A stretch of DNA of 22,647 bases from a virus: IMG/VR virus record IMGVR_UViG_3300006805_000180, positions 1 to 22,647 of that record. The stretch is one strand, 5' to 3'. Positions 78 to 12,782 of this stretch are shown one piece after another. The notes below the pieces were generated by a model. That model was not told the DNA's origin and ran no database searches. It saw nothing but the letters and a program-made list of their open reading frames with translations. The first letter of the stretch is position 1. Each line of letters starts with the position of its first letter. A program made the translations under genes and the position numbers.

Positions 78-90
78 CTTTAATGACATA

Positions 91-693
91 ATGGCAAAAG
101 TTGAATATATATCCAAAAGAGCGTTTGCAAAGAAGATACACGTTAGTGAGGGTGCAGTACGTAAGGCCATTGAATCTGGTAAGATTATTAAAGGCTTCAA
201 CGCTCAGCTTAATAAAATAAATTTTGCTATTGCGTATGAAGAATATGGCCAGGCTAAAACCACACCCAAAGCTGGGCACGGTGTGTCGCATGAAAAGGTT
301 GCAGAAAAGCTTTCGAAGCAAAAACCGAACGACGAAGCGCACAATGATGATGAGCTAGAAGATGATCTTGCAGATATGAGTTACATCGAGCTCATTCAAA
401 AGGTAAAAATTAATCCTACACTTTCATACCAGGAAGGTTTGCGCCGCAGCCAGATACTTAAACTGGCCACTGAAAAAATAGAACTTGAAGAAAAACAAAC
501 CAGCCTGGTACGTAAAGCTGAAGTTGACAAAGCAATGTTTGCAATGGGCGATCAACTTAAAAAAGATTTACAAAGCATACCCAGCCGTGCAGTGGCATTG
601 ATAAGATCCGCTGCAACAGAAGTAGAAGCAAATAATATTCTTGCTTTCGAAATAAACCAGGTGCTTGAATCATTTGCAGGGCTTGGATCATAA
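91..693 (+). CDS. terS: Phage terminase small subunit (lambda Nu1-like)
   Basis: This is the DNA-recognition subunit that would load viral DNA onto the large terminase for packaging. The ATG at 91 gives 200 aa. An upstream GTG at 55 would add 12 residues, but it lies inside the palindrome at 44-77. The N-terminus (about residues 5-35) reads as a winged helix-turn-helix (KRAFAKKIHVSEGAVRKAIE), followed by an acidic linker and then a helical segment of the Nu1 type, with YQEGLRRSQILKLATEKIEL leading into LVRKAEVDKAMFAMGDQL. The length is close to Nu1 (181 aa). Its usual partner, the GpA-type large subunit, is about 7.1 kb downstream instead of adjacent. The stop codon TAA at 691-693 is already part of the first cargo site. 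The family call is from pattern recognition. Confidence 0.75.
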   Translation: MAKVEYISKRAFAKKIHVSEGAVRKAIESGKIIKGFNAQLNKINFAIAYEEYGQAKTTPKAGHGVSHEKVAEKLSKQKPNDEAHNDDELEDDLADMSYIELIQKVKINPTLSYQEGLRRSQILKLATEKIELEEKQTSLVRKAEVDKAMFAMGDQLKKDLQSIPSRAVALIRSAATEVEANNILAFEINQVLESFAGLGS

Positions 694-812
694 CAGTAAC
701 GCTTTGTGCAGGTGGTGTTTCAAGGCTCGTCAGCCCAACCCTTGCACCAAAGTTCAATAAAGATAAAATGACGAGCCTTTAACCGTCTGCCCCACTTGCA
801 CAAAGCGTATTG
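691..812. repeat. attC-like two-armed inverted-repeat site A
   Basis: The outer arms are ACGCTTTGTGCAGGTGG (699-715) and CCACTTGCACAAAGCGT (792-808), 17 bp with one mismatch. An inner pair, AAGGCTCGTCA (722-732) and TGACGAGCCTT (769-779), is a perfect 11-bp stem. The site begins in the terminase stop (TAAC) and ends at the GTT of 812-814 that opens the next unit. The spacer is A/T-rich and non-coding. It could fold as a cruciform or an RNA. It resembles integron attC sites in layout, not in exact core sequence. Confidence 0.7.
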
Positions 813-826
813 TTGGTGGCAGTTAA
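812..826. repeat. Left bracket of cargo unit 1
   Basis: GTTGGTGGCAGTTAA is the inverse complement, with 14 of 15 matches, of TTAATTGCCACCAAC at 1081-1095. The two copies enclose only the small gene 839-1084. Confidence 0.75.
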
Positions 827-838
827 ATTTTGAACGAA

Positions 839-1084
839 ATGAGCAGAATATTAACAAGAGAGGAATGCTTAAAATTAGATATTCCTTTATACAACAAGGT
901 AATGGATAAACAATGGGCAATAGATAAAGTTGAAAAGAATTTGTCGGGCGAATTGTCTGTTTGTAAATATTGCCAAAGGAAGTATGTCATTTGTTGTATT
1001 TGTGATACAGCAGAAGAAAGGTGGAATAATATGTTAGAAGAAGTCAAAGCGGTTTCTGAACAACGGAATACTGCGTCCTATTAA
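839..1084 (+). CDS. Small CxxC protein, unknown function (cargo unit 1)
   Basis: This is an 81-aa protein from the ATG at 839. A TTG at 830 in the same frame is possible but less likely. Residues around 45-56 read CKYCQRKYVICCIC, a pair of CxxC-type motifs that suggests a small zinc-binding knuckle. The rest is charged and helical. I do not recognise a family. The gene fills a unit enclosed by a matched inverted repeat (812-826 and 1081-1095), and its stop codon lies inside the right copy. That arrangement supports mobility as a single cassette. A zinc-binding role is inferred only from the cysteines. Confidence 0.6.
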   Translation: MSRILTREECLKLDIPLYNKVMDKQWAIDKVEKNLSGELSVCKYCQRKYVICCICDTAEERWNNMLEEVKAVSEQRNTASY

Positions 1085-1279
1085 TTGCCACCAACGATAG
1101 GGCTTACTGCATGTGGCGGCATTTGAAAATATGATGCTCGGAACTAAAGCTAAATTAAAAAACAAAATTTTAAATATGGAACAAAAGTTAAATAGTAATT
1201 CGTCCGCTGGAGCCGCTGCTGATAGCGATATACAGCCCATTGTTATTCCTTCTGCCGACATTGCAGTAAACCCCATGTT
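1081..1279. repeat. attC-like site B with the right bracket of unit 1
   Basis: TTAATTGCCACCAAC (1081-1095) closes unit 1. The arm GATAGGGCTTACTGCAT (1096-1112) then pairs with ATTGCAGTAAACCCCATG (1260-1277). TTACTGCA/TGCAGTAA is perfect and the flanks are imperfect. The interior (about 1113-1259) is A/T-rich. It contains a module around 1198-1224 that is also found inside site D (about 4057-4084), with GCCGCTGCTGAT / ACCGCTGCTGAT at its core. An open frame crosses the site by chance, so the downstream gene is not extended through it. Confidence 0.65.
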
Positions 1280-1580
1280 GGCTGCTGCCTTGTTAAGCCC
1301 TGCCTTAGAATGGCAATCTGATAGAGGCGGCAGATTTGATTATCCTGCAAACTTTCGTGGTCGTGTACCATTAAAAGTAAAAGTTGCAAAAAAGGTAGAA
1401 CCTGATTTGCCTTGGTTAAAAAAAGAACTTGGCGTAAAAGATGATACTGTTTGTTTAAAAGACAATGAATATTATGTATGGGTCAATAGTTATGGTGCTG
1501 TGTCTGCAATATTGCCTAATGGCGAAAGGCTTGGATTGCTGCCGTCAGAGTTTGATGTTATAGAGTGGCACGAAAGGTAG
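1275..1580 (+). CDS. Hypothetical protein, about 101 aa (cargo unit 2)
   Basis: The unrecognised protein ends in YVWVNSYGAVSAILPNG followed by GLLPSEFDVIEWH. This compact, beta-rich ending looks like a small conserved domain, and I have an impression of having seen similar endings in Bacteroidetes hypothetical proteins. The frame is open from a GTG at 1113, with ATGs at 1131 and 1176. That stretch is the interior of repeat site B, so I prefer the ATG at 1275, which straddles the proposed site core (ATG then TTG). A TTG at 1290 is the alternative. The gene is enclosed by GTTGGCTGCTGCC (1277-1289) and GGTAGCAGCCAAC (1576-1588), inverse complements at 12 of 13 positions. The start is uncertain; the C-terminal reading frame is reliable. 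Confidence 0.55.
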   Translation: MLAAALLSPALEWQSDRGGRFDYPANFRGRVPLKVKVAKKVEPDLPWLKKELGVKDDTVCLKDNEYYVWVNSYGAVSAILPNGERLGLLPSEFDVIEWHER

Positions 1581-1702
1581 CAGCCAACGGTTTGTGGCTT
1601 GGCGATGTTGCCGAAACTGATGCTCAAAAAAGAGATGCAGTTGAAGTTACAATGTCAAGCAAAATTGAAAAACTGAACGGCAATATTGCCAAACCGCTTG
1701 TT
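1576..1702. repeat. attC-like site C with the right bracket of unit 2
   Basis: GGTAGCAGCCAAC (1576-1588) closes unit 2. The left arm CGGTTTG..GGCGATGTTGCCG (1588-1613) pairs with CGGCAATATTGCC..AAACCG (1678-1696). The left arm carries about six extra bases (TGGCTT), which would stay outside the helix. The interior is A/T-rich and encodes nothing visible. The site ends at the GTT of 1700-1702 that opens unit 3. Confidence 0.65.
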
Positions 1703-1714
1703 ATATGTAGTTGT
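1700..1714. repeat. Left bracket of cargo unit 3
   Basis: GTTATATGTAGTTGT is the inverse complement, at 13 of 15 positions, of ACAATTACACATAAC at 4010-4024. The pair encloses the 2.3-kb methyltransferase operon. The A/T-rich stretch 1715-1817 between it and the first gene holds a possible Bacteroidetes-type promoter (TTTG at 1770, TATTTTTTG at 1789), but the spacing is shorter than usual. Confidence 0.7.
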
Positions 1715-1817
1715 GGGTGCTAATTGATGTCGCTGCTATGAAAAACTAAAGTTCGGCTGTATTATTTTTTTTGAAGCTGCGGAGCATGTATTTTTTGTAT
1801 TTAAAAATCTTGAAATT

Positions 1818-2012
1818 ATGGATAATTCAATAGTAAAAATGGGGATGATAAAGTACGATGATGGTAAAGAGTATGGTGCTTTCTTTGAGATAGCAGGAAT
1901 TACTTTTAAATTACAGAAAGTAAAAACAAAACAAGCCGCAACTTTAGAAGTAAAAAGGCTTGTAAAAGCATTTTCTAAATTGCCAAATGTTGAAGAAACA
2001 AAAATGTTATGA
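1818..2012 (+). CDS. Small hypothetical protein upstream of the methyltransferase
   Basis: This 64-aa protein opens with MDNSIVKMGMIKYDDGKEYG and continues with a short beta-rich stretch and a basic helix (about residues 35-55). I recognise no family. It is the first gene of the unit 3 operon and overlaps the methyltransferase by 4 bp (ATGA), so the two are very likely translationally coupled. It may be an accessory or regulator of the methyltransferase, but nothing in the sequence proves this. Confidence 0.6.
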   Translation: MDNSIVKMGMIKYDDGKEYGAFFEIAGITFKLQKVKTKQAATLEVKRLVKAFSKLPNVEETKML

Positions 2013-2800
2013 TAGAATTACATCATGGAGATTGCTTAGAAATAATGCCTTCAATACCTGATAAAAGTATTGATATGATACTTTGTGATTTACCATACGG
2101 AACAACAGCTTGTAAATGGGACACGATAATACCATTTGACAAACTTTGGGAACAATACGAAAGGATTATAAAGCCGAATGGTGCAATAGCTTTATTTAGT
2201 AGTGAGCCTTTCGGCACTTACCTAAGAATAAGCAATATTAAATATTATAGGTATGATATAATTTGGGATAAAGAAACTGGCAATGGTAGCGTTCTTTGCC
2301 ATAAAAGACCATTAAAGCAGTTTGAAAAAATAAATGTTTTTTATAAAAATCAGCCTACTTATAACCCGCAAATGATAGAAAGGGATAAATCAAAGTACAG
2401 AACCCCGAGGGATATGTCCAAATGGAAGGACAGTATAACAGAAACAATGGGTATAAAAAGAATTAATCCAGTAAATTATGATGAAAATAAAAAATACCCA
2501 ACTGATATACTAAAATACAACTGTAAAGAAGCGGAGTTAAACTCAAAATATAAAATACATCCAACTCAAAAGCCCGTTTCATTAATCGGTAATTTAGTAA
2601 TGACTTACACTAATGAGGGTGAAACTGTTTTAGATAATTGTATGGGAAGCGGAACAACAGGGGTTGCTTGCAGAAATCTTAATCGTAATTTTATAGGCAT
2701 TGAAAAAGATGAAAAATATTTTGAAATAGCTAAAAAAAGAATAAATGAAGGAGCCAATAATGTTGAAAGAAACACAGAACAAATTAGCTTGCCATTATAG
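2009..2800 (+). CDS. Site-specific DNA methyltransferase, beta class (N6-adenine/N4-cytosine type)
   Basis: The protein would transfer a methyl group from S-adenosylmethionine to an exocyclic amino group in DNA. It has 263 aa, typical of solitary phage methyltransferases. Motif IV DLPYGT is at residues 27-32, followed by the conserved KWD. HPTQKPV is at 184-190, and the SAM-binding motif VLDNCMGSGTTGVA is at 207-220. The order catalytic motif before SAM motif is the beta class of the N4/N6 methyltransferase family. DLPYG favours adenine as target, but this is not certain. No restriction gene is coupled to it within unit 3, so it looks like an orphan methyltransferase, perhaps shielding phage DNA or acting on packaging or expression. 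It is coupled by overlap to 1818-2012 and 2760-2942. Confidence 0.9.
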   Translation: MIELHHGDCLEIMPSIPDKSIDMILCDLPYGTTACKWDTIIPFDKLWEQYERIIKPNGAIALFSSEPFGTYLRISNIKYYRYDIIWDKETGNGSVLCHKRPLKQFEKINVFYKNQPTYNPQMIERDKSKYRTPRDMSKWKDSITETMGIKRINPVNYDENKKYPTDILKYNCKEAELNSKYKIHPTQKPVSLIGNLVMTYTNEGETVLDNCMGSGTTGVACRNLNRNFIGIEKDEKYFEIAKKRINEGANNVERNTEQISLPL

Positions 2801-2942
2801 CCTTACTGGGAATACTGATTATGATAATGGGTATAATCAAGCAGTTAAAGACTTATGCAAGGTTATTAGAGATGCTATTGATAAACCCGATAATCAGTGG
2901 TACACAAAACAAATTTTAGAACAAATTTTAAAATCTTACTAA
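2760..2942 (+). CDS. Small hypothetical protein
   Basis: The protein has 60 aa from the ATG at 2760. AAGGAG at 2748-2753 is a well-placed ribosome binding site for this start, so I prefer it to the ATG at 2745. The gene begins inside the end of the methyltransferase gene. Residues include TDYDNGYNQAVKDLCKVIRD and a C-terminal helix. No family is recognised; the style fits small phage early genes. Confidence 0.55.
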   Translation: MLKETQNKLACHYSLTGNTDYDNGYNQAVKDLCKVIRDAIDKPDNQWYTKQILEQILKSY

Positions 2943-2944
2943 TT

Positions 2945-3166
2945 ATGAAAACTGCAATGCAATTTTGTTTAGAAAAGTTTATGGTAGAAATATCAAACGA
3001 AGATGCCGCAAAATTAATTGATATGGAAATGGAACAAATAACTAACGCTTTTGTAAATGGTATGATGCAAGGTTGCACTTTGCAATTAAGGGAAGAATTT
3101 AAAATGGTGCAAACACCAGAACAATTTTTTAACGAAAAATATAAAGACAATAAGAAAATGGGATAA
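2945..3166 (+). CDS. Small hypothetical protein, paralogue of 3490-3723
   Basis: The protein has 73 aa from the ATG at 2945, two bases after the preceding stop. It starts MKTAMQ and carries an I(T/V)(N/D)AF..G pattern and a KY-containing tail (EQFFNEKYKDN). The gene at 3490 has the same layout (MKTALQ, QIVDAFEEG, YLNSKYNQND), so the two are probably diverged duplicates. I remember this kind of short protein from Bacteroidetes phages, without a known function. Confidence 0.55.
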   Translation: MKTAMQFCLEKFMVEISNEDAAKLIDMEMEQITNAFVNGMMQGCTLQLREEFKMVQTPEQFFNEKYKDNKKMG

Positions 3167-3179
3167 ATACAGGTGCGAT

Positions 3180-3275
3180 ATGTGCAATGATAGCGGTGCT
3201 GTTACCACTGGTATTTCAGAAGATGGGCATACCATTTATTCTACCTGCCCATGCGTTGATGATGAAAGAAACTAA
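3180..3275 (+). CDS. Possible 31-aa zinc-knuckle microprotein
   Basis: The frame from the ATG at 3180 encodes MCNDSGAVTT followed by a CPC ending, TAA at 3273-3275. The frame is open further upstream and reads KWDKYRCDMCNDSG just before, giving a CxxC..CxC layout typical of small zinc-ribbon proteins. There is no ATG further upstream, so translation could start at 3180 or by coupling from 3166. It fills an otherwise empty gap in a tight operon. Confidence 0.35.
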   Translation: MCNDSGAVTTGISEDGHTIYSTCPCVDDERN

Positions 3276-3280
3276 TAACA

Positions 3281-3493
3281 ATGGAAAATATTTTTACGAT
3301 AAAGAAGGATAAGCTAAGAGAAATAGGCTATGATTTTGCCGAAAGTTTTTATAAATGGTGTAAAAACAATAGGATTAAAATTGAAGAACCGAAAAATAAT
3401 AAGACTGGACTTTATGAAACTTTTGTAGTTCATCTTGATACTACTGAAAAGCAATTTTTATTTTCAAATAAATACTTAAAAACACTAAAATGA
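3281..3493 (+). CDS. Small hypothetical protein
   Basis: This is a 70-aa basic protein (FAESFYKWCKNNRIKIEEPK..LYETFVVHLDTTEKQFLF) with no recognised domain. It lies in the middle of the unit 3 operon and overlaps the next start by 4 bp (ATGA at 3490-3493), which indicates translational coupling. Confidence 0.5.
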   Translation: MENIFTIKKDKLREIGYDFAESFYKWCKNNRIKIEEPKNNKTGLYETFVVHLDTTEKQFLFSNKYLKTLK

Positions 3494-3723
3494 AAACGGC
3501 ATTACAAGAGTTATTATCATGGGCAAAACACCCAATCGAAGATGGTGAAGTTAACCACTCTCTGTATAGTAAGATAAATGAACTGATGGAAAAAGAAAAA
3601 CAGCAAATAGTAGATGCTTTTGAAGAAGGTGTAAATATTGGAATGAACGGAATTTACGCAGAAAGATTTTCTGCTGATATTTATTTAAACTCAAAATATA
3701 ATCAAAATGACAAAGACATTTGA
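3490..3723 (+). CDS. Small hypothetical protein, paralogue of 2945-3166
   Basis: This 77-aa protein has MKTALQELLSWA at the N-terminus, a central MEKEKQQIVDAFEEG helix and YLNSKYNQND near the end. It shares layout with 2945-3166. It overlaps genes on both sides (4 bp and 17 bp). The function is unknown; it belongs to a class of small proteins I have seen in Bacteroidetes phage early operons. Confidence 0.55.
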   Translation: MKTALQELLSWAKHPIEDGEVNHSLYSKINELMEKEKQQIVDAFEEGVNIGMNGIYAERFSADIYLNSKYNQNDKDI

Positions 3724-3946
3724 ATTAAAAGAAAGCCCAATTTTTGATGATGAAGAACTTTATACTTCATTTACAGAATGGCATCAAAGAGTAGCCGAAG
3801 AAAGAATGGTATTAAACGAAATACTGGCTAATGAGCCTGATGGATTTGAAAGGCGCAAGGAATTATACAATAACTTTTACCGTAAAATCGGTATGGTATC
3901 AAACGATATGTTCAATGATTTCACAAATGTTATTAACGAAGACTAA
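3707..3946 (+). CDS. Small hypothetical protein, last gene of unit 3
   Basis: This 79-aa acidic protein (FDDEELYTSFTEWHQRVAEE, then ERRKELYNNFYRKIGMVSND) is probably all-helical, with no recognised family. It overlaps the previous gene by 17 bp and is followed by 63 non-coding bases before the bracket repeat at 4010. Confidence 0.5.
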   Translation: MTKTFELKESPIFDDEELYTSFTEWHQRVAEERMVLNEILANEPDGFERRKELYNNFYRKIGMVSNDMFNDFTNVINED

Positions 3947-4009
3947 TGTGTGGCTTGGGTAAAAAAAATAATACAGTTATCCGTCTGCCCCATAAATGGT
4001 ATGCTGGTA

Positions 4010-4212
4010 ACAATTACACATAACGAACAGGGCTTGCCGAAGTACGGGAATTAGTATTCCGTCCGCCCATGACCGCTGCTGATTAAGAAACTGAAGTTGA
4101 AGATAACAACAAAAAGCTAAATAGAATTACGTCAAGCTGGATATGAAGCACAATAGAATTACCGCAGATGAAGATAACTTGGGTCAGCCCGTATTTTGGC
4201 AAACCCATTGTT
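4010..4212. repeat. attC-like site D with the right bracket of unit 3
   Basis: ACAATTACACATAAC (4010-4024) closes unit 3. The arm GAACAGGGCTTGCCGAAGTACGGG (to 4048) pairs with CCCGTATTTTGGCAAACCCATTG (4188-4210), with two extra bases in the left arm. The interior (4049-4187) is A/T-rich and non-coding and shares the CCGCTGCTGAT module with site B. A stretch at 3979-3994 (TTATCCGTCTGCCCCA) resembles 783-794 in site A and may be a remnant of another copy. Together with the hairpin at 4273-4350, this fills the 453-base gap between 3946 and 4400; I see no gene in it. Confidence 0.7.
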
Positions 4213-4224
4213 ATGCGTTCGCCC
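4210..4224. repeat. Left bracket of cargo unit 4
   Basis: GTTATGCGTTCGCCC is the inverse complement of GGGTGACGCATAAC at 6844-6857 apart from one gap and one mismatch. The pair encloses the restriction-modification gene and its two hairpins. Confidence 0.65.
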
Positions 4225-4272
4225 TTCTGTCCACCGTTGTTTTAATTGTGTGTCGGGGTTTTAGAAGCGTCT

Positions 4273-4350
4273 GCAAGCCGCAAAGGGGTACAAAGGTTAG
4301 CGTTGTGTCAAGGTTTTTGTGTGCCTTTGTACCTGTTTGTCGGCTTTTGC
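4273..4350. repeat. Hairpin element E, constant loop and variable stem, upstream of the RM gene
   Basis: The inner stem is GGTACAAAGG (4287-4296) with CCTTTGTACC (4324-4333), and the outer is GCAAGCCG (4273-4280) with CGGCTTTTGC (4341-4350). The 27-base loop holds TGTGTCAAGGTTTTTGTG. The sequence before it, AGAAGCGTCTGCAAG, and the loop recur at element F (6674-6753), but the stem bases differ while pairing is kept. Confidence 0.7.
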
Positions 4351-4399
4351 GTAGGATGTTTTATCTTGTCGGCATTTCTATTAAAGCAAATAATTTATT

Positions 4400-6664
4400 A
4401 TGGCAAATAAAATTTATAAAGGAGTGAAAAGCGAAACTATAACTGAAAATATATTTAGGGGTTTTTATGGTGCTGATGCTTTCATAGAAAAGTCGGCTAT
4501 TCCAAAAGAATTTGGCTTCCAATCAAAAAACAATACAAACTACAAGGGTTATCCCGACTTCCTTAGAGAAGAAGAAGATTACTTTATTGTTGTCGAAGCT
4601 AAAGCAACTATACATAAGGAAGCCGTGTCAGAAGTAAACCACTACATGACTATTAATAAGATTGAAAAAGATATTATTGGTATTGCTGTGTCTGGGCAAA
4701 ATTTAAGTGATTTGAAGGTAAATTATTTTCTGAAAATTCAAGGTGGTGATGTTGTTTCCTTAAAAACTAACAATGCTTTGCTTGCTTTGTCTAACATTGA
4801 TAGGTTATTTAGGCAAAATAAATATGGCGAAAGTGTTTCTGCTGAAAGTCTAACAACGGTATTAAAAAGCCTAAATAAGACTTTTAATTCAGAAAATAAA
4901 GTAAGGGATGCAGACAGAAGTTTATTTTTTTCAGGTTTAATGATTGCGTTAAAAGATAATACATTTAGAAGCACTTATAAGAATATACAAACTCCTTCCG
5001 AAGATGAAGTAAAGTCAAAAAAGCATACAGTTCTTGAAGCTCATAATTTAAACAATGCGATATTAGAAGCTATTACAAGACAGTTAACTAACAAAATAAA
5101 CAACCTTTCAAAAGAATATAATTGGAGAGATAGATTTTCATTTATAAAAAATATAGATTACTCAATTATTGAGTACAGAAAAATTATTGATACGATTGAA
5201 AAGAATATTTACAAGCCGTTTCAAAATGATGAAAAGCATGATATACTTGGCAAGGCATACAAAATATTTTTGTCAAGAGCAGGGAAAATAGATAATAAGA
5301 ATATTATCTTAACTCCTGACCATATAAAAAGCCTAATGGTTGAATTAGCAAGACTAAATGCTAATGATGTAGTAATTGATACTTGTGCTGGCACAGGTGG
5401 TTTTTTGATGGAAGCAATGGAAGTAATGATTACAAAGGCAAATAATGATGATGCTATTATTCATAACATAAAAGAACACCAACTGTTGGGATTTGAAGTT
5501 GACCCTGTATTGTTTGCCTTAGCTTGTTCAAATATGTTTTTGCATGGCGATGGCAGAACCAATATGTTGTTTAGGAGCAGTTTGTTAAATGATAGACACG
5601 AAAGCATTTTAAACAATAAGGACGCAGAACTTTTAAAGTTCATACAAGATACTAAGCCAACAAAGTGCATAATCAACCCCCCATACGAAAACAACAACTC
5701 AATAAAATTTGTAAAACAGGCGATTGATTACTTAGAGCCTAATGGGAAGCTGGTTATTATTATGCCAACCCCCACTTTGACACAAAACCAAAATGGATTG
5801 GCAAAGGAACTACTTGAAATTGCTAAGTTGGATTTTGTTATAAAGATGCCATTTAAAATCTTTACAGAGCAGAAAAGAACAGTAAATACCTCTGTTTTTG
5901 GTTTTACGAAAACTCCACATCAGCAAAATGATGAAGTGTTGTTTTATCACTTAGAAGATGATGGGTTTGTAAGTATTCAACATAAAGGAAGGGTTGATAA
6001 ATATAAAAAATGGGATGCAATAAGAGCAGATGTTATACATAGTATTTTGAACTCAACAGAGAAAAAAGGTGTTTGCGAAAAACGTAAAATATTCAAAGAT
6101 GGCATTCTGAACTTTGCTGGTGTTCCAAATATTTATAATCGAAAGTCAAAAATGATTTTGATTGATGATTTGTTTATTGTCGAAAAAGGTTCTTTAGCAA
6201 GTGAAAACAGCGAAGAAGGAGAGTATGACTTTGTTACTGGGTCTGAAGATTGGAAACAACATAATTCATACGACTACGATAAAGAAGCTATTGTTTATGT
6301 TGTTTCTGCTGCTGGTTCACTTGGTAGAAGCCATTATGTAAACGGAAAGTTTATTGCAAGTAATTTATGTCTTGTATTAACGCCTAAACAATCTAAAGAC
6401 TACCCAATTAATTTAAAGTTTTATAACACCTACTTTAATTATATAAGAAAACAAATGGTTTCAGACTTGGCTGATGGTACTTCAAAACTTACAATTAGAG
6501 AAGACGATTTGAAAGCATATTATATTGATTATATTGATATAAAGTATCAAAATGACTTTGCAAAGAACCATATTGAACCGTTCCAAAAAAAGCAACATCA
6601 ATTAAAGCAGGAAATTGAAAAGTTGTCAAATACAATAAATAGTAGCTTAGTAAAGATACTTTGA
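4400..6664 (+). CDS. Type IIG-like restriction-modification enzyme (nuclease, N6-adenine methylase, target recognition)
   Basis: This 754-aa protein seems to carry a whole restriction-modification system. The N-terminal about 100 residues hold a PD-(D/E)XK nuclease motif: GYPD (D53) followed by VVEAKA (E66, K68). The central part is an HsdM-like methylase: LTPDHI at 304-309, SAM motif DTCAGTGGF at 327-335, and catalytic NPPY at 426-429. The last about 180 residues resemble an HsdS-type target recognition domain (EKGSLASENSEEGEYDFVTG, with TSKLTIREDDL later). The order nuclease-methylase-specificity matches type IIG enzymes. The gene is A/T-rich compared with the head genes, sits alone in cargo unit 4, and lies between hairpins E and F. 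A probable role is exclusion of competing DNA. Activity as a nuclease is inferred from motifs only. Confidence 0.85.
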   Translation: MANKIYKGVKSETITENIFRGFYGADAFIEKSAIPKEFGFQSKNNTNYKGYPDFLREEEDYFIVVEAKATIHKEAVSEVNHYMTINKIEKDIIGIAVSGQNLSDLKVNYFLKIQGGDVVSLKTNNALLALSNIDRLFRQNKYGESVSAESLTTVLKSLNKTFNSENKVRDADRSLFFSGLMIALKDNTFRSTYKNIQTPSEDEVKSKKHTVLEAHNLNNAILEAITRQLTNKINNLSKEYNWRDRFSFIKNIDYSIIEYRKIIDTIEKNIYKPFQNDEKHDILGKAYKIFLSRAGKIDNKNIILTPDHIKSLMVELARLNANDVVIDTCAGTGGFLMEAMEVMITKANNDDAIIHNIKEHQLLGFEVDPVLFALACSNMFLHGDGRTNMLFRSSLLNDRHESILNNKDAELLKFIQDTKPTKCIINPPYENNNSIKFVKQAIDYLEPNGKLVIIMPTPTLTQNQNGLAKELLEIAKLDFVIKMPFKIFTEQKRTVNTSVFGFTKTPHQQNDEVLFYHLEDDGFVSIQHKGRVDKYKKWDAIRADVIHSILNSTEKKGVCEKRKIFKDGILNFAGVPNIYNRKSKMILIDDLFIVEKGSLASENSEEGEYDFVTGSEDWKQHNSYDYDKEAIVYVVSAAGSLGRSHYVNGKFIASNLCLVLTPKQSKDYPINLKFYNTYFNYIRKQMVSDLADGTSKLTIREDDLKAYYIDYIDIKYQNDFAKNHIEPFQKKQHQLKQEIEKLSNTINSSLVKIL

Positions 6665-6673
6665 TGGTGTCCT

Positions 6674-6762
6674 AAGAAGCGTATGCAAGATTTTAGCTCT
6701 TTTGCAGGTTTGGTCTGTGTCAAGGTTTTGTGAGCCTGCAAATGTGCTAAAATGTGTGTCGG
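6674..6762. repeat. Hairpin element F, downstream of the RM gene
   Basis: This is a second copy of element E. AGAAGCGTATGCAAG leads into stem arms ATTTTAGC (6690-6697) and TTTGCAGG (6701-6708), which pair with CCTGCAAA (6735-6742) and GCTAAAAT (6746-6753). The loop holds TGTGTCAAGGTTTTGTG, nearly identical to E, while the stem sequence is different but still complementary. It starts 10 bases after the RM stop codon and could also act in transcript 3'-end formation, though no T-run follows. Confidence 0.7.
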
Positions 6763-6843
6763 CAAAGAAGCAGAGCTATTAAAACAAATTTGAAATACTG
6801 TCGCCCAAAATGTCAACTGTCTGCCGATTAAAGGACTGTCGCA

Positions 6844-6857
6844 GGGTGACGCATAAC
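6844..6857. repeat. Right bracket of cargo unit 4, array end
   Basis: GGGTGACGCATAAC matches the inverse complement of 4210-4224. Unlike after units 1-3, no second site arm follows before the recombinase gene at 6898. The array therefore appears to end in a half or truncated site. Confidence 0.55.
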
Positions 6858-6897
6858 ATCTTTCTTCCCGCACTCTTTATAATAATCAATAACTTAT

Positions 6898-7782
6898 ATG
6901 TCACGTAAACAAGAACTACTTAACCAATTTAAAAAGGAACTGCAACTTCGTAACTATGCCCCAAACAGCATAGATACCTATTCCGGTTACCTGGGCCAGT
7001 TCTTAGATGCAATGCAGGGCGCACCAAAGCCACTACCACTGCAGCATATAAAAGATTTTTTATTAAAGATCACCAATATGAATACCAGGGCAATGTATGT
7101 AATCAGCATCCGTAATTTTTACAACTTCGTTTTAAAAACACCGCTGAATCTTGATGATATTCCATACCCGCGCAAAACCAACTATCTGCCCCAAATACTC
7201 AGCATACAGGAAGTTCAGCGTTTAATAAATGGAACGCAGAATATTAAACACCGGGCAATGCTGCAGATAATCTATAGTTGCGGATTGCGGGTAAGCGAAG
7301 TGCCCGAAATTGAATGCAATAAAACCATTTGCCATATAGATAGCGATCGTAAAACATTGCTGGTAAAAGGTGCCAAAGGTTTTAAAGATCGTTACGTACC
7401 ACTTCCATTGCCAACCATTAACCTTTTAAAAACTTATCGTAAAACAGATCCTGTGGGCAAGTGGTTGTTCATGGGGCAAAACCAGCAAAAATATACGGTA
7501 CGCAGTATTCAGCAGGTGTTTCACCAGGCAAAGCAACGGGCAGGTATTTATAAAAAAGTAACTACGCATTCGCTTCGGCATAGCAGGGCTACTCATTTAT
7601 GCGAAGGTGGTATGGATATTTACGAGCTTAAGATATTCCTGGGCCATAATAATATAAAAACAACCGAAATTTATTTGCACCTCAGTAAATCAGCATTGGT
7701 AAGCAAAACCGAAATGGCAGATTTAATAATCGCACAGGCACTGGCAAATACTGAAATGCGGCTCGAATTTGCTCATGCATAA
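6898..7782 (+). CDS. Tyrosine recombinase / integrase
   Basis: This 294-aa site-specific recombinase would cut and rejoin DNA through a 3'-phosphotyrosine. A SAM-like core-binding domain (about residues 4-85) precedes the catalytic domain. The expected residues are visible: R131 in CGLRVSE, a lysine in VKGAKGFKDRYVPL (K160 or K163), H224 and R227 in THSLRH, H250 in LGHNN, and nucleophile Y259 in TEIYLHL. The overall form is XerC/D-like. I do not see the extra helix insertion that marks integron integrases before the HxxR box. The protein could integrate the phage, resolve dimers or act on the adjacent cassette sites; the sequence does not decide. Its position between the small and large terminase genes is unusual. 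Confidence 0.9.
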   Translation: MSRKQELLNQFKKELQLRNYAPNSIDTYSGYLGQFLDAMQGAPKPLPLQHIKDFLLKITNMNTRAMYVISIRNFYNFVLKTPLNLDDIPYPRKTNYLPQILSIQEVQRLINGTQNIKHRAMLQIIYSCGLRVSEVPEIECNKTICHIDSDRKTLLVKGAKGFKDRYVPLPLPTINLLKTYRKTDPVGKWLFMGQNQQKYTVRSIQQVFHQAKQRAGIYKKVTTHSLRHSRATHLCEGGMDIYELKIFLGHNNIKTTEIYLHLSKSALVSKTEMADLIIAQALANTEMRLEFAHA

Positions 7783-7845: not shown

Positions 7846-9720
7846 ATGTCTACCAACCCCATCATAGATTACAGCATCATCGCCGGTTTCCTTCGTGGCA
7901 TCCGTCCGGATCCTTTGCTCACCGTTTCGCAGTGGGCCGATCATCACCGCGTACTGCCACAAACAAACAGTGAACCCGGTCGTTTCCGCACCAGCCGCAC
8001 ACCATACAACAGGGAAATTGCCGACAGGCTCAGCGCCACCGATCCTGCACAGATCATTATCTTTAAAAAATCATCGCAGATCGGTGCCACTGAAACTGCA
8101 AACAATTGGGTAGGTTACGATATCGACATAGCCCCCGCTCCTATGCTCTACATCATGCCCACCGATACCATGATGAAAGACACCAGCAAAAACCGCATTC
8201 AGAAGCTGATAGATACCACGCCGCGCATCAAAGCAAAGATCAAACCCAGCAAGGCCAAAGACAGCGGCAATACCATACAGTATAAAGAATTCGAAGGCGG
8301 GTTTATAAAAATGGTTGGTGCCAATAGCCCGGTAGGTTTAGCCTCCACTGCTGTGCGTTATGTTTATGCCGATGAAGTAGACCGTTACCCCCTCGATGTT
8401 GGCGGCGAAGGTTCAGCCCTCGACCTGGCTAAAACCCGTACCATTAGCTTTGGTGCCCGAAAGAAAATATTCATTACAAGTACACCCACAAAGAAAGGCA
8501 CCAGTGTTATCGACAATGCATTTAAAGAAACCGGCCAGCGGTATTATCATGTGCCCTGCCCGCATTGTGGCAGCGGCCAGGTATTAAAATTCGAGCAACT
8601 GCGTTGGACAAAAGGCGACTACACCACCGTAGAATACGAATGCATCCATTGCCGCACCAATATTTCCGAATTCCACAAAACCCGCATGATCACTGCCGGC
8701 TGCTGGCTTGCCACTCATCCGGAGAAAGAAGATGGCATTACCTACGGCTACCACATCAATGCATTGTATGCACCGCAGGGCTGGTATAGCTGGGGCGAAA
8801 TGGCAAAAGATTACGATGATAGCGAAGGCAACATTCCAAAGCGCATCACTTTCATAAATACAAAGCTGGGCGAGTGTTACGAAGAAGAGGGCGAGGTGCC
8901 CGATTACCAGCGCCTCTATGCCTTACGTGAGCTATATAAACAAAACACCCTCATGCCCGAAGTATCATTTATCACTGCAGGTGTCGATGTTCAGGCAGAT
9001 CGCTTAGAGCTGGAAATCGTGGGGTGGATAAAAGGCAAAGAAAGCCAGAGCATAGATTACCGAATCATAAGCGGCGACACCAGTAACCCCGACACCTGGA
9101 AGAAACTTGACTTTGTGCTCAATGAAACATTTGCCAAAGCAGATGGTACCCTGTTCCCCGTTTCAGCAATGGCAATAGATACCGGTTACAACACAAAGTA
9201 TGTGTACGATTTCTGTATGCGCTACCAGGGCCTTAACCGCGTGTTTCCCGTAAAAGGCAGCGATGCCCTCGCCACCATGTACAGCGCCCCAAAAGCGGTG
9301 CAGGTAACCCGTGCAGGGCAAAAGGTAAACAGCATCAAAGTATTTCATGTGGGTGTAAGCCTTATAAAAAGCGAGTTGTATGGATGGTTAAAGCTCAATC
9401 CCAACGAAGATAAAACCTACCCGCCCGGTTATTGTCATTTCCCGCAGTACGATACCCATTATTTCCGGGGCATCACTGCCGAAAAACTCGAACGCAAAAC
9501 CAATAAAAAAGGCTTTGCAGTGTACGAGTGGGTAAAGGTTTATAAAAGAAACGAGGCGCTCGATTGCCGGGTATATGCCCGTGCCGCCGCCGCCATCTTC
9601 GGCATGGATTTTATGAAAGAGGAACATTGGCAAAAGCTGCAAAGCACCATACCCGCAACCAGCGGTAAAGAGCCAGCAATCAATAAACAAAAAAAGAAAA
9701 AACGCGAAAGCATCTGGTAA
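7846..9720 (+). CDS. terL: Phage terminase large subunit (GpA family)
   Basis: This is the packaging motor ATPase and nuclease that would cut concatemeric phage DNA and drive it into the prohead. At 624 aa it is close to lambda gpA (641). The ATPase domain has the adenine-side region GRFRTSRTPYNREI, a deviant Walker A KKSSQIGATE (74-83), Walker B VYADEVD (173-179) and the coupling motif TSTPT (211-215). A zinc knuckle of CPHC (238-241) and CIHC (266-269) follows, as in the GpA family. The nuclease domain shows acidic residues in GVDVQAD (D381) and AIDTGYN (D445). The gene starts at the ATG at 7846 just after a dispersed repeat. Its usual neighbour, the small subunit, is at 91-693. Confidence 0.95.
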   Translation: MSTNPIIDYSIIAGFLRGIRPDPLLTVSQWADHHRVLPQTNSEPGRFRTSRTPYNREIADRLSATDPAQIIIFKKSSQIGATETANNWVGYDIDIAPAPMLYIMPTDTMMKDTSKNRIQKLIDTTPRIKAKIKPSKAKDSGNTIQYKEFEGGFIKMVGANSPVGLASTAVRYVYADEVDRYPLDVGGEGSALDLAKTRTISFGARKKIFITSTPTKKGTSVIDNAFKETGQRYYHVPCPHCGSGQVLKFEQLRWTKGDYTTVEYECIHCRTNISEFHKTRMITAGCWLATHPEKEDGITYGYHINALYAPQGWYSWGEMAKDYDDSEGNIPKRITFINTKLGECYEEEGEVPDYQRLYALRELYKQNTLMPEVSFITAGVDVQADRLELEIVGWIKGKESQSIDYRIISGDTSNPDTWKKLDFVLNETFAKADGTLFPVSAMAIDTGYNTKYVYDFCMRYQGLNRVFPVKGSDALATMYSAPKAVQVTRAGQKVNSIKVFHVGVSLIKSELYGWLKLNPNEDKTYPPGYCHFPQYDTHYFRGITAEKLERKTNKKGFAVYEWVKVYKRNEALDCRVYARAAAAIFGMDFMKEEHWQKLQSTIPATSGKEPAINKQKKKKRESIW

Positions 9721-9737: not shown

Positions 9738-9825
9738 CCGTCATTTCGAAGCAGGCACGACTGAGAAATCTTTTGAGCCAAACAATAGATCATGAATGAA
9801 GCTTTGTTGCGTCGCACACTTGTAC
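9738..9825. repeat. Dispersed intergenic repeat, copy 2 (most complete)
   Basis: The copy runs from CCGTCATTTCGAAGCAGGCA through GACTGAGAAATCT and GAGCCA to TTGCGTCGCACACTTGTAC. The first half recurs at 12673 and 15548, and the second half at 7790, 12721-12782, 16244, 19260 and 22622. It lies between the terminase gene and a small A/T-rich gene and encodes nothing visible. Confidence 0.75.
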
Positions 9826-12672: not shown

Positions 12673-12782
12673 CCGTCATTTCGAAGGAGGCACGACTGAG
12701 AAATCTCATGAGCCCAACAGTTGCGTAAATCGCAACATCCTTGCACAGTTTATCCCGAACTTGTTTCGGGGCACACTTGTAC
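12673..12782. repeat. Dispersed intergenic repeat, copy 3, with embedded dyad and hairpin
   Basis: It starts CCGTCATTTCGAAGGAGGCA and GACTGAGAAATCT as in copy 2 and ends GCACACTTGTAC. The middle is replaced by the dyad TTGCGTAAATCGCAA (12721-12735) and a hairpin with arms CCCGAA (12754-12759) and TTCGGG (12765-12770). It fills the gap after the portal gene. Confidence 0.7.
12721..12735. repeat. TTGCG-N5-CGCAA dyad, copy 3
   Basis: TTGCGTAAATCGCAA has perfect 5-bp arms around TAAAT. It lies inside the dispersed repeat at 12673-12782, at the place where other copies read TTGCGTCGCAC. Confidence 0.6.

Follow-up and report, generated by a model that had tools for sequence, protein, structure and literature searches.

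Organization of the locus

The IMG/VR virus record IMGVR_UViG_3300006805_000180 is a phage fragment of 22,647 bases; the complete record is called the window in the following. The host of this phage is a bacterium of the Bacteroidota type. Between the genes for the two terminase subunits, the window carries a cassette array (692-6857), directly followed by the gene for a tyrosine recombinase. The array comprises four tandem cassettes, each consisting of an attC-like hairpin site and a gene unit. The features of the region are listed below, all of them on the + strand; R1 denotes a covariance model and L002 a second viral contig, both introduced in the next sections.

88..693, +: terminase small subunit (terS); phrog_57, E 3e-12; homologues adjoin terL in relatives; left flank of the insertion
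692..811, +: attC-like site A, outer end of the array; R1 58.1 bits, E 4.9e-13
812..1095, +: cassette unit 1; a single open reading frame (ORF) of about 81 amino acids (839-1084); ends 14/15 complementary
1096..1276, +: attC-like site B; R1 33.4 bits, E 7e-7; full fold computed
1277..1588, +: cassette unit 2; ORF 1275-1580, its ATG overlapping the GTT core; ends 14/15 complementary
1589..1699, +: attC-like site C; R1 50.0 bits, E 5.3e-11
1700..4024, +: cassette unit 3; N6/N4 DNA methyltransferase (2009-2800) and several small ORFs; PF01555, E 1.6e-32; ends 13/15 complementary
4025..4209, +: attC-like site D; R1 40.5 bits, E 1.2e-8
4210..6857, +: cassette unit 4; N6 DNA methyltransferase resembling type IIG restriction-modification enzymes (4400-6664); PF02384, E 6e-26; PADLOC REase_MTase_IIG, E 6e-41; ends 11/15 complementary
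6855..6897, +: attI-like junction AAC|ATCTTTCTTCCCGCACTCTTT; conserved in L002 to the right of AAC; chromosomal relatives share this geometry
6898..7782, +: tyrosine recombinase (array integrase); catalytic R131 K157 H224 R227 H250 Y259; without the additional domain of IntI
7846..9720, +: terminase large subunit GpA (terL); PF05876, PF20454; right flank of the insertion

Unit ends and site structure

A preliminary description of this DNA had noted four units in a row, each opened by GTT and closed by AAC, with complementary ends. These units are seen directly in the window: if the opening is compared with the reverse complement of the closing, 14, 14, 13 and 11 of 15 positions match in units 1 to 4, while the true opening of unit 2 is position 1277 (GTTGGCTGCTGCC). 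Among 23,381 GTT...AAC pairs within the window at distances of 150-3000 bases, 7 reach at least 13 matches, with the true pairs counted in. The reach of the complementarity to about 15 bases, as described before, is real and general for the family. Across 50 units, the match to the unit's own end amounts to 8.6 of 11 at the variable positions 4-14, compared to 4.3 under random (shuffled) pairing. At position 11, none of the 50 units shows a match, and on the + strand G is nearly always opposite T.

The same site pattern stands ahead of every unit: AAC and, after a few bases, GGGCTT..., then a centre followed by ...AAACCC, 2-3 bases and GTT. A simple scan for AAC/GTT inverted repeats turned out to be too unspecific, with about two matches per 8 kb of shuffled DNA, and was superseded by the covariance model R1. 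This model was trained solely on the seven sites of L002, so that the window sites were held out. Searching the window, R1 recovered sites A-D with the E-values listed above, the next-best match having an E-value of 0.42. The two-armed sites described previously are thus real; however, each site goes with the unit that follows it on the + strand, one cassette is site plus unit, and there are four sites for four units. The closing of the last unit (6857) directly meets the attI-like junction and no site is missing there.

Joined in circular form, the sites adopt a fold in which an R box of 15 bases is followed by a spacer that stays unpaired, an L box containing a single mismatch, and a loop. 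Of the two strands, the + strand (equivalent to the bottom strand of canonical sites) gives the more stable fold in 42 of 50 sites, and the extrahelical position is seen as a 1x1 mismatch. The core reads GTTRKNNG: GTTR is present in 48 of the 50 openings, while the canonical GTTRRRY fits 1 of the 50 units. An Rfam search matched no family.

The integrase, the attI-like junction and the insertion

The array had been described as being without a recognizable integron integrase, which we have to correct: a tyrosine recombinase sits at 6898-7782, directly behind the array, and begins 40 bases past the closing of the last cassette; its family is the one found alongside such arrays across Bacteroidota. 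The enzyme possesses the Pfam domains Phage_int_SAM_4 and Phage_integrase together with the catalytic residues of tyrosine recombinases, and its best NCBIfam match is the XerA model NF040815. A search with this recombinase led to two viral contigs, L002 and L003, whose integrases are 74% identical to that of the window; in L003 the integrase lies behind a seven-cassette array. Both contigs have a different terminase (Terminase_3), an unrelated packaging module and seven other cassettes with the same type of site. Rightward of AAC, the junction AACATCTTTyTT...GCACTCT is conserved in the window phage and in L002, though their last cassettes differ. Judged from its sequence, this conserved junction right of the last cassette looks as an attI site would and is therefore named attI-like.

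Two further searches addressed viral contigs. A pattern search for the attI motif returned only the L002/L003 records as genuine, all other matches being unrelated sequence. An alignment-based search, with poor peptide patterns, delivered nothing beyond the known contigs and remote recombinases.

In six related phages with terL 51-63% identical to that of the window, terS adjoins terL, in one case with a single small ORF in between, and neither array nor integrase is found there. Consequently, array and integrase together represent an insertion.

Cassette turnover in chromosomal relatives

R1 was run over loci of bacterial genomes that encode homologous recombinases. In Chryseobacterium, Epilithonimonas, Taishania and other Bacteroidota, these loci comprise up to nine sites, and the strong matches are all located upstream of the integrase on the same strand. 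Cassette replacement at the junction is observed directly by comparison of such loci, the relatives carrying junction breakpoints being Chryseobacterium/Epilithonimonas. First, L009 and L031 share 96% identity over 6.3 kb that comprise the integrase and the DNA downstream, with homology stopping exactly at the AAC|attI junction. Second, downstream of attI synteny is conserved among L006, L007, L011 and L044, while upstream of attI the cassettes differ and the arrays share sites rather than genes. In addition, one cassette gene is common to L009 and L013, where it stands in different neighbourhoods. The same sites with other genes, which the preliminary description had proposed to seek in related phages and chromosomes, are present according to R1. 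A gene order that is always fixed had been named as the outcome refuting mobile cassettes. For the family it is contradicted by the cassette differences among chromosomal relatives; for the window phage itself, the evidence consists in the entirely different cassettes of L002/L003 at the same attI junction.

As further observations on these loci, the integrase gene of L009, L014 and L044 appears broken (frameshift, stop or deletion), with the array still there. Gut Bacteroides and relatives (L018-L033) possess a related recombinase as well; no significant R1 sites were found near these recombinase loci.

Distribution among Bacteroidota

At E <= 1e-5, R1 detected sites in 131 of 395 Bacteroidota species, a number to be read as a lower bound (eight candidates were scored per genome). 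The recombinase profile A3 (E <= 1e-50) matches 121 of these 395 genomes. Sites and integrase occur together: 82 genomes have both, 49 sites only, 39 integrase only and 225 neither (odds ratio 9.7, p 1e-21). Where sites and integrase are linked, the attI-facing end of the sites points toward the integrase in 25 of 26 pairs; among those 25, sites and integrase share a strand in 5, which is the arrangement of the window, and the integrase is reversed in 20. As negative control served the phylum of the Pirellulaceae locus L043, in which R1 at the same threshold matched 0 of 199 genomes. In the control phylum of the Cloacimonadota locus L016, 12 of 125 genomes gave weak R1 matches.

A second architecture was found in G076, G074, G301, G320 and G392, where array and integrase have opposite orientations and several of the proteins have N-terminal extensions. 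An integrase reversed relative to the array is known for Spirochaete integrons. Besides, single attC-like sites are scattered over the whole chromosomes of G050, G076 and G203, not in arrays.

Gene orientation and cargo of phage arrays

Arrays of this kind are carried by 13 further viral contigs. One of them (G417) has about 14 sites in 7 kb, and in L201 terminase and portal genes, named from their ORF sequences, lie behind the array. The genes of phage cassettes are oriented opposite to those of chromosomal cassettes, a strong regularity that calls for explanation. A unit was assigned if its longer ORF exceeded that of the other strand by 1.5x, the phage set being the window, L002 and five further contigs. 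Relative to attC, 32 phage units are flipped, 1 is canonical and 8 are unclear, whereas 5 chromosomal units are flipped, 62 canonical and 1 unclear (p 9e-20). By simple majority rule, 26 of 29 units of an overlapping phage set are flipped. All four units of the window and all seven of L002 are among the flipped ones, in contrast to the canonical chromosomal relatives. Thus, in phages the site precedes the gene. The flipped genes point to attI, co-directional with the terS-terL operon, and would probably be transcribed from phage promoters. Read-through from such promoters, instead of from a promoter beside attI, is the likely explanation of the flipping, as we infer.

Concerning the cargo, homologues of the unit 3 methyltransferase (43-47% identical) are found in cassettes of the phage arrays L213, L232, L233 and L235, and L003 carries a C5 methyltransferase as well as a further phage-type DNA methyltransferase. 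For the ORF of unit 1 (839-1084), family searches gave no match. The recognizable cargo being mainly DNA methyltransferases suggests an exchange of anti-restriction modification genes directed against host restriction.

Interpretation and alternative explanations

Integron-like cassettes of a tyrosine-recombinase system within a phage packaging region had been postulated in the preliminary description. The site folds and the chromosomal relatives, differing in cassettes at the same attI, bear this out, while the flipped genes and the insertion between terS and terL had been overlooked. We consider the region, in all likelihood, to be a complete phage-borne integron-like platform made up of the integrase (6898-7782), the attI-like site (approximately 6855-6897) and the four cassettes. 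The integrase would recombine the folded + strand of attC, i.e., the canonical bottom strand with its usually stabler fold, with attI or with another attC. Incoming cassettes would enter beside the integrase, and cassettes would excise as circles. Beyond the window, it is quite probable that a phylum-wide integron lineage of Bacteroidota was overlooked on account of integrases without the additional domain of IntI and of a core other than GTTRRRY, that phages run a parallel pool of flipped cassettes, and that some phages carry the whole platform.

Several points weigh against this interpretation. Recombination in the window array is inferred from sequence. The evidence for turnover stems from the chromosomal relatives and not from the window phage, given that L002 and L003 have identical cassettes. 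The integrase was found only in the window and in L002/L003, while the 13 other contigs with phage arrays, which are possibly fragments, are without it. Furthermore, identity between phage and chromosomal integrases is only about 36-41%, and the phage enzymes form a long branch. Finally, the 39 genomes with integrase only indicate that the recombinase family may have other jobs too.

Among the alternatives, convergence survives best: a XerA-type recombinase could have evolved cassette exchange independently of IntI. The absent additional domain, the core that is not GTTRRRY and the XerA-like model as best-scoring match would all fit such a scenario. However, in our trees the array integrases and canonical IntI are sister groups, to the exclusion of chromosomal XerC/D (100/98) and archaeal XerA (95/90), with a sampling of only three canonical IntI rows and two XerA rows that were hand-copied from a printed alignment, where small copying errors are possible. 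The site architecture of R box, spacer and L box is identical as well, and we regard an independent origin as rather unlikely.

Considerably less probable still is that the array represents an integrase-less cluster (CALIN), served by a host integrase, with the adjoining recombinase being there by chance as a lysogeny or dimer-resolution enzyme of the phage. The thirteen other phage contigs with arrays and no detectable integrase, the common occurrence of host-type integrases and the existence of CALIN-bearing phages (PMC9892861) are in line with this idea. Nevertheless, two phages that differ in their packaging genes have their arrays ended directly by the same recombinase and junction, and a homologous recombinase ends chromosomal arrays in fixed orientation. 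That the inverted repeats serve as terminators of transcription or as RNA structures in a fixed gene order, the other refuting outcome named in the preliminary description, deserves hardly any credence: they are indeed intergenic hairpins, but distant unit ends keep their complementarity, the sites are conserved in a cross-phage model and linked to the integrase, homology in relatives breaks at the junction, and Rfam offers no match.

The additional domain of IntI is considered necessary for integron recombination. If the platform and its lineage are real, a large sister lineage without this domain would make its role directly testable. In addition, a gene-capture system would be added to a major phylum, and phages would gain a modular swapping of DNA-methyltransferase genes.

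Other repeats of the window

Apart from the array, a 20-base word (GTACAAGWGTGCGACGCAAC) occurs in six copies near gene ends (7790, 9806, 12763, 16245, 19259 and 22622), on both strands and with 0-3 mismatches, where shuffles expect 0. The word may be a terminator or else a dispersed repeat. Two direct copies of a 47-base sequence (CCGTCATTTCGAAGCAGGCACGACTGAGAAATCT...), with 91% identity, lie between phage genes at 9738-9784 and 12673-12719.

Comparison with known systems

Canonical integrons, with IntI, attI and attC, either mobile class 1 or sedentary chromosomal, resemble the present family in many ways. Both have tandem cassettes with complementary ends, sites composed of R box, unpaired spacer, L box and loop, an attI at the array end by the integrase, and turnover at attI. 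However, alignment with Vibrio and Shewanella IntI revealed an additional domain of about 44 residues in the canonical enzymes, which the array integrases lack. Against TIGR02249 (cut-off 265), the array integrases score 131-208 bits, mostly in two pieces, whereas the Vibrio and Shewanella phage IntI controls reach 494 and 394 in one piece. The sites differ too: the canonical core is GTTRRRY / RYYYAAC in contrast to GTTRKNNG, and in the present family the R box reaches 15 bases, interrupted at position 11 by an invariant non-match that is nearly always G.T. Furthermore, canonical cassette genes usually point away from attI and have attC at the 3' end, though this is not strictly definitional, while the phage cassettes described here are the opposite. 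Since the additional domain and the GTTRRRY core, two definitional features, are absent, the system should not be classified among canonical integrons; it probably works like one, and a relationship to integrons is probable.

Archaeal XerA and bacterial XerC/XerD are, like the array integrases, simple two-domain tyrosine recombinases. Yet they resolve dimers at dif, have no cassette arrays and fall outside the group of IntI and Bacteroidota integrases in our trees.

CALINs, i.e., attC clusters without a neighbouring integrase, are known from phages, for example from Polaribacter phage P12002L with methyltransferases (PMC9892861). The likeness lies in phage-borne attC arrays with DNA methyltransferase cargo. 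In contrast, those phage elements are integrase-less or employ a host-derived canonical IntI, while the window encodes a non-canonical integrase of its own, which starts 40 bases past the last cassette. Below E 0.01, R1 found no match in P12002L or in the Vibrio or Shewanella phage integrons.

For the same phylum, the IntegronFinder 2.0 survey listed, apart from In0 elements, just a single complete integron, that of Salinibacter ruber (PMC9024848), whereas the present family occurs in 131 of the 395 species sampled here. In the open-access literature (bioRxiv was outside the scope) we found no description of this family, which is not proof of absence. A homology-independent uptake and integration of genes with attC-like hairpins was described for Riemerella anatipestifer in 2026, its mechanism being unexplained (PMC13148043). 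The present family is a candidate mechanism for this gene uptake in a related bacterium.

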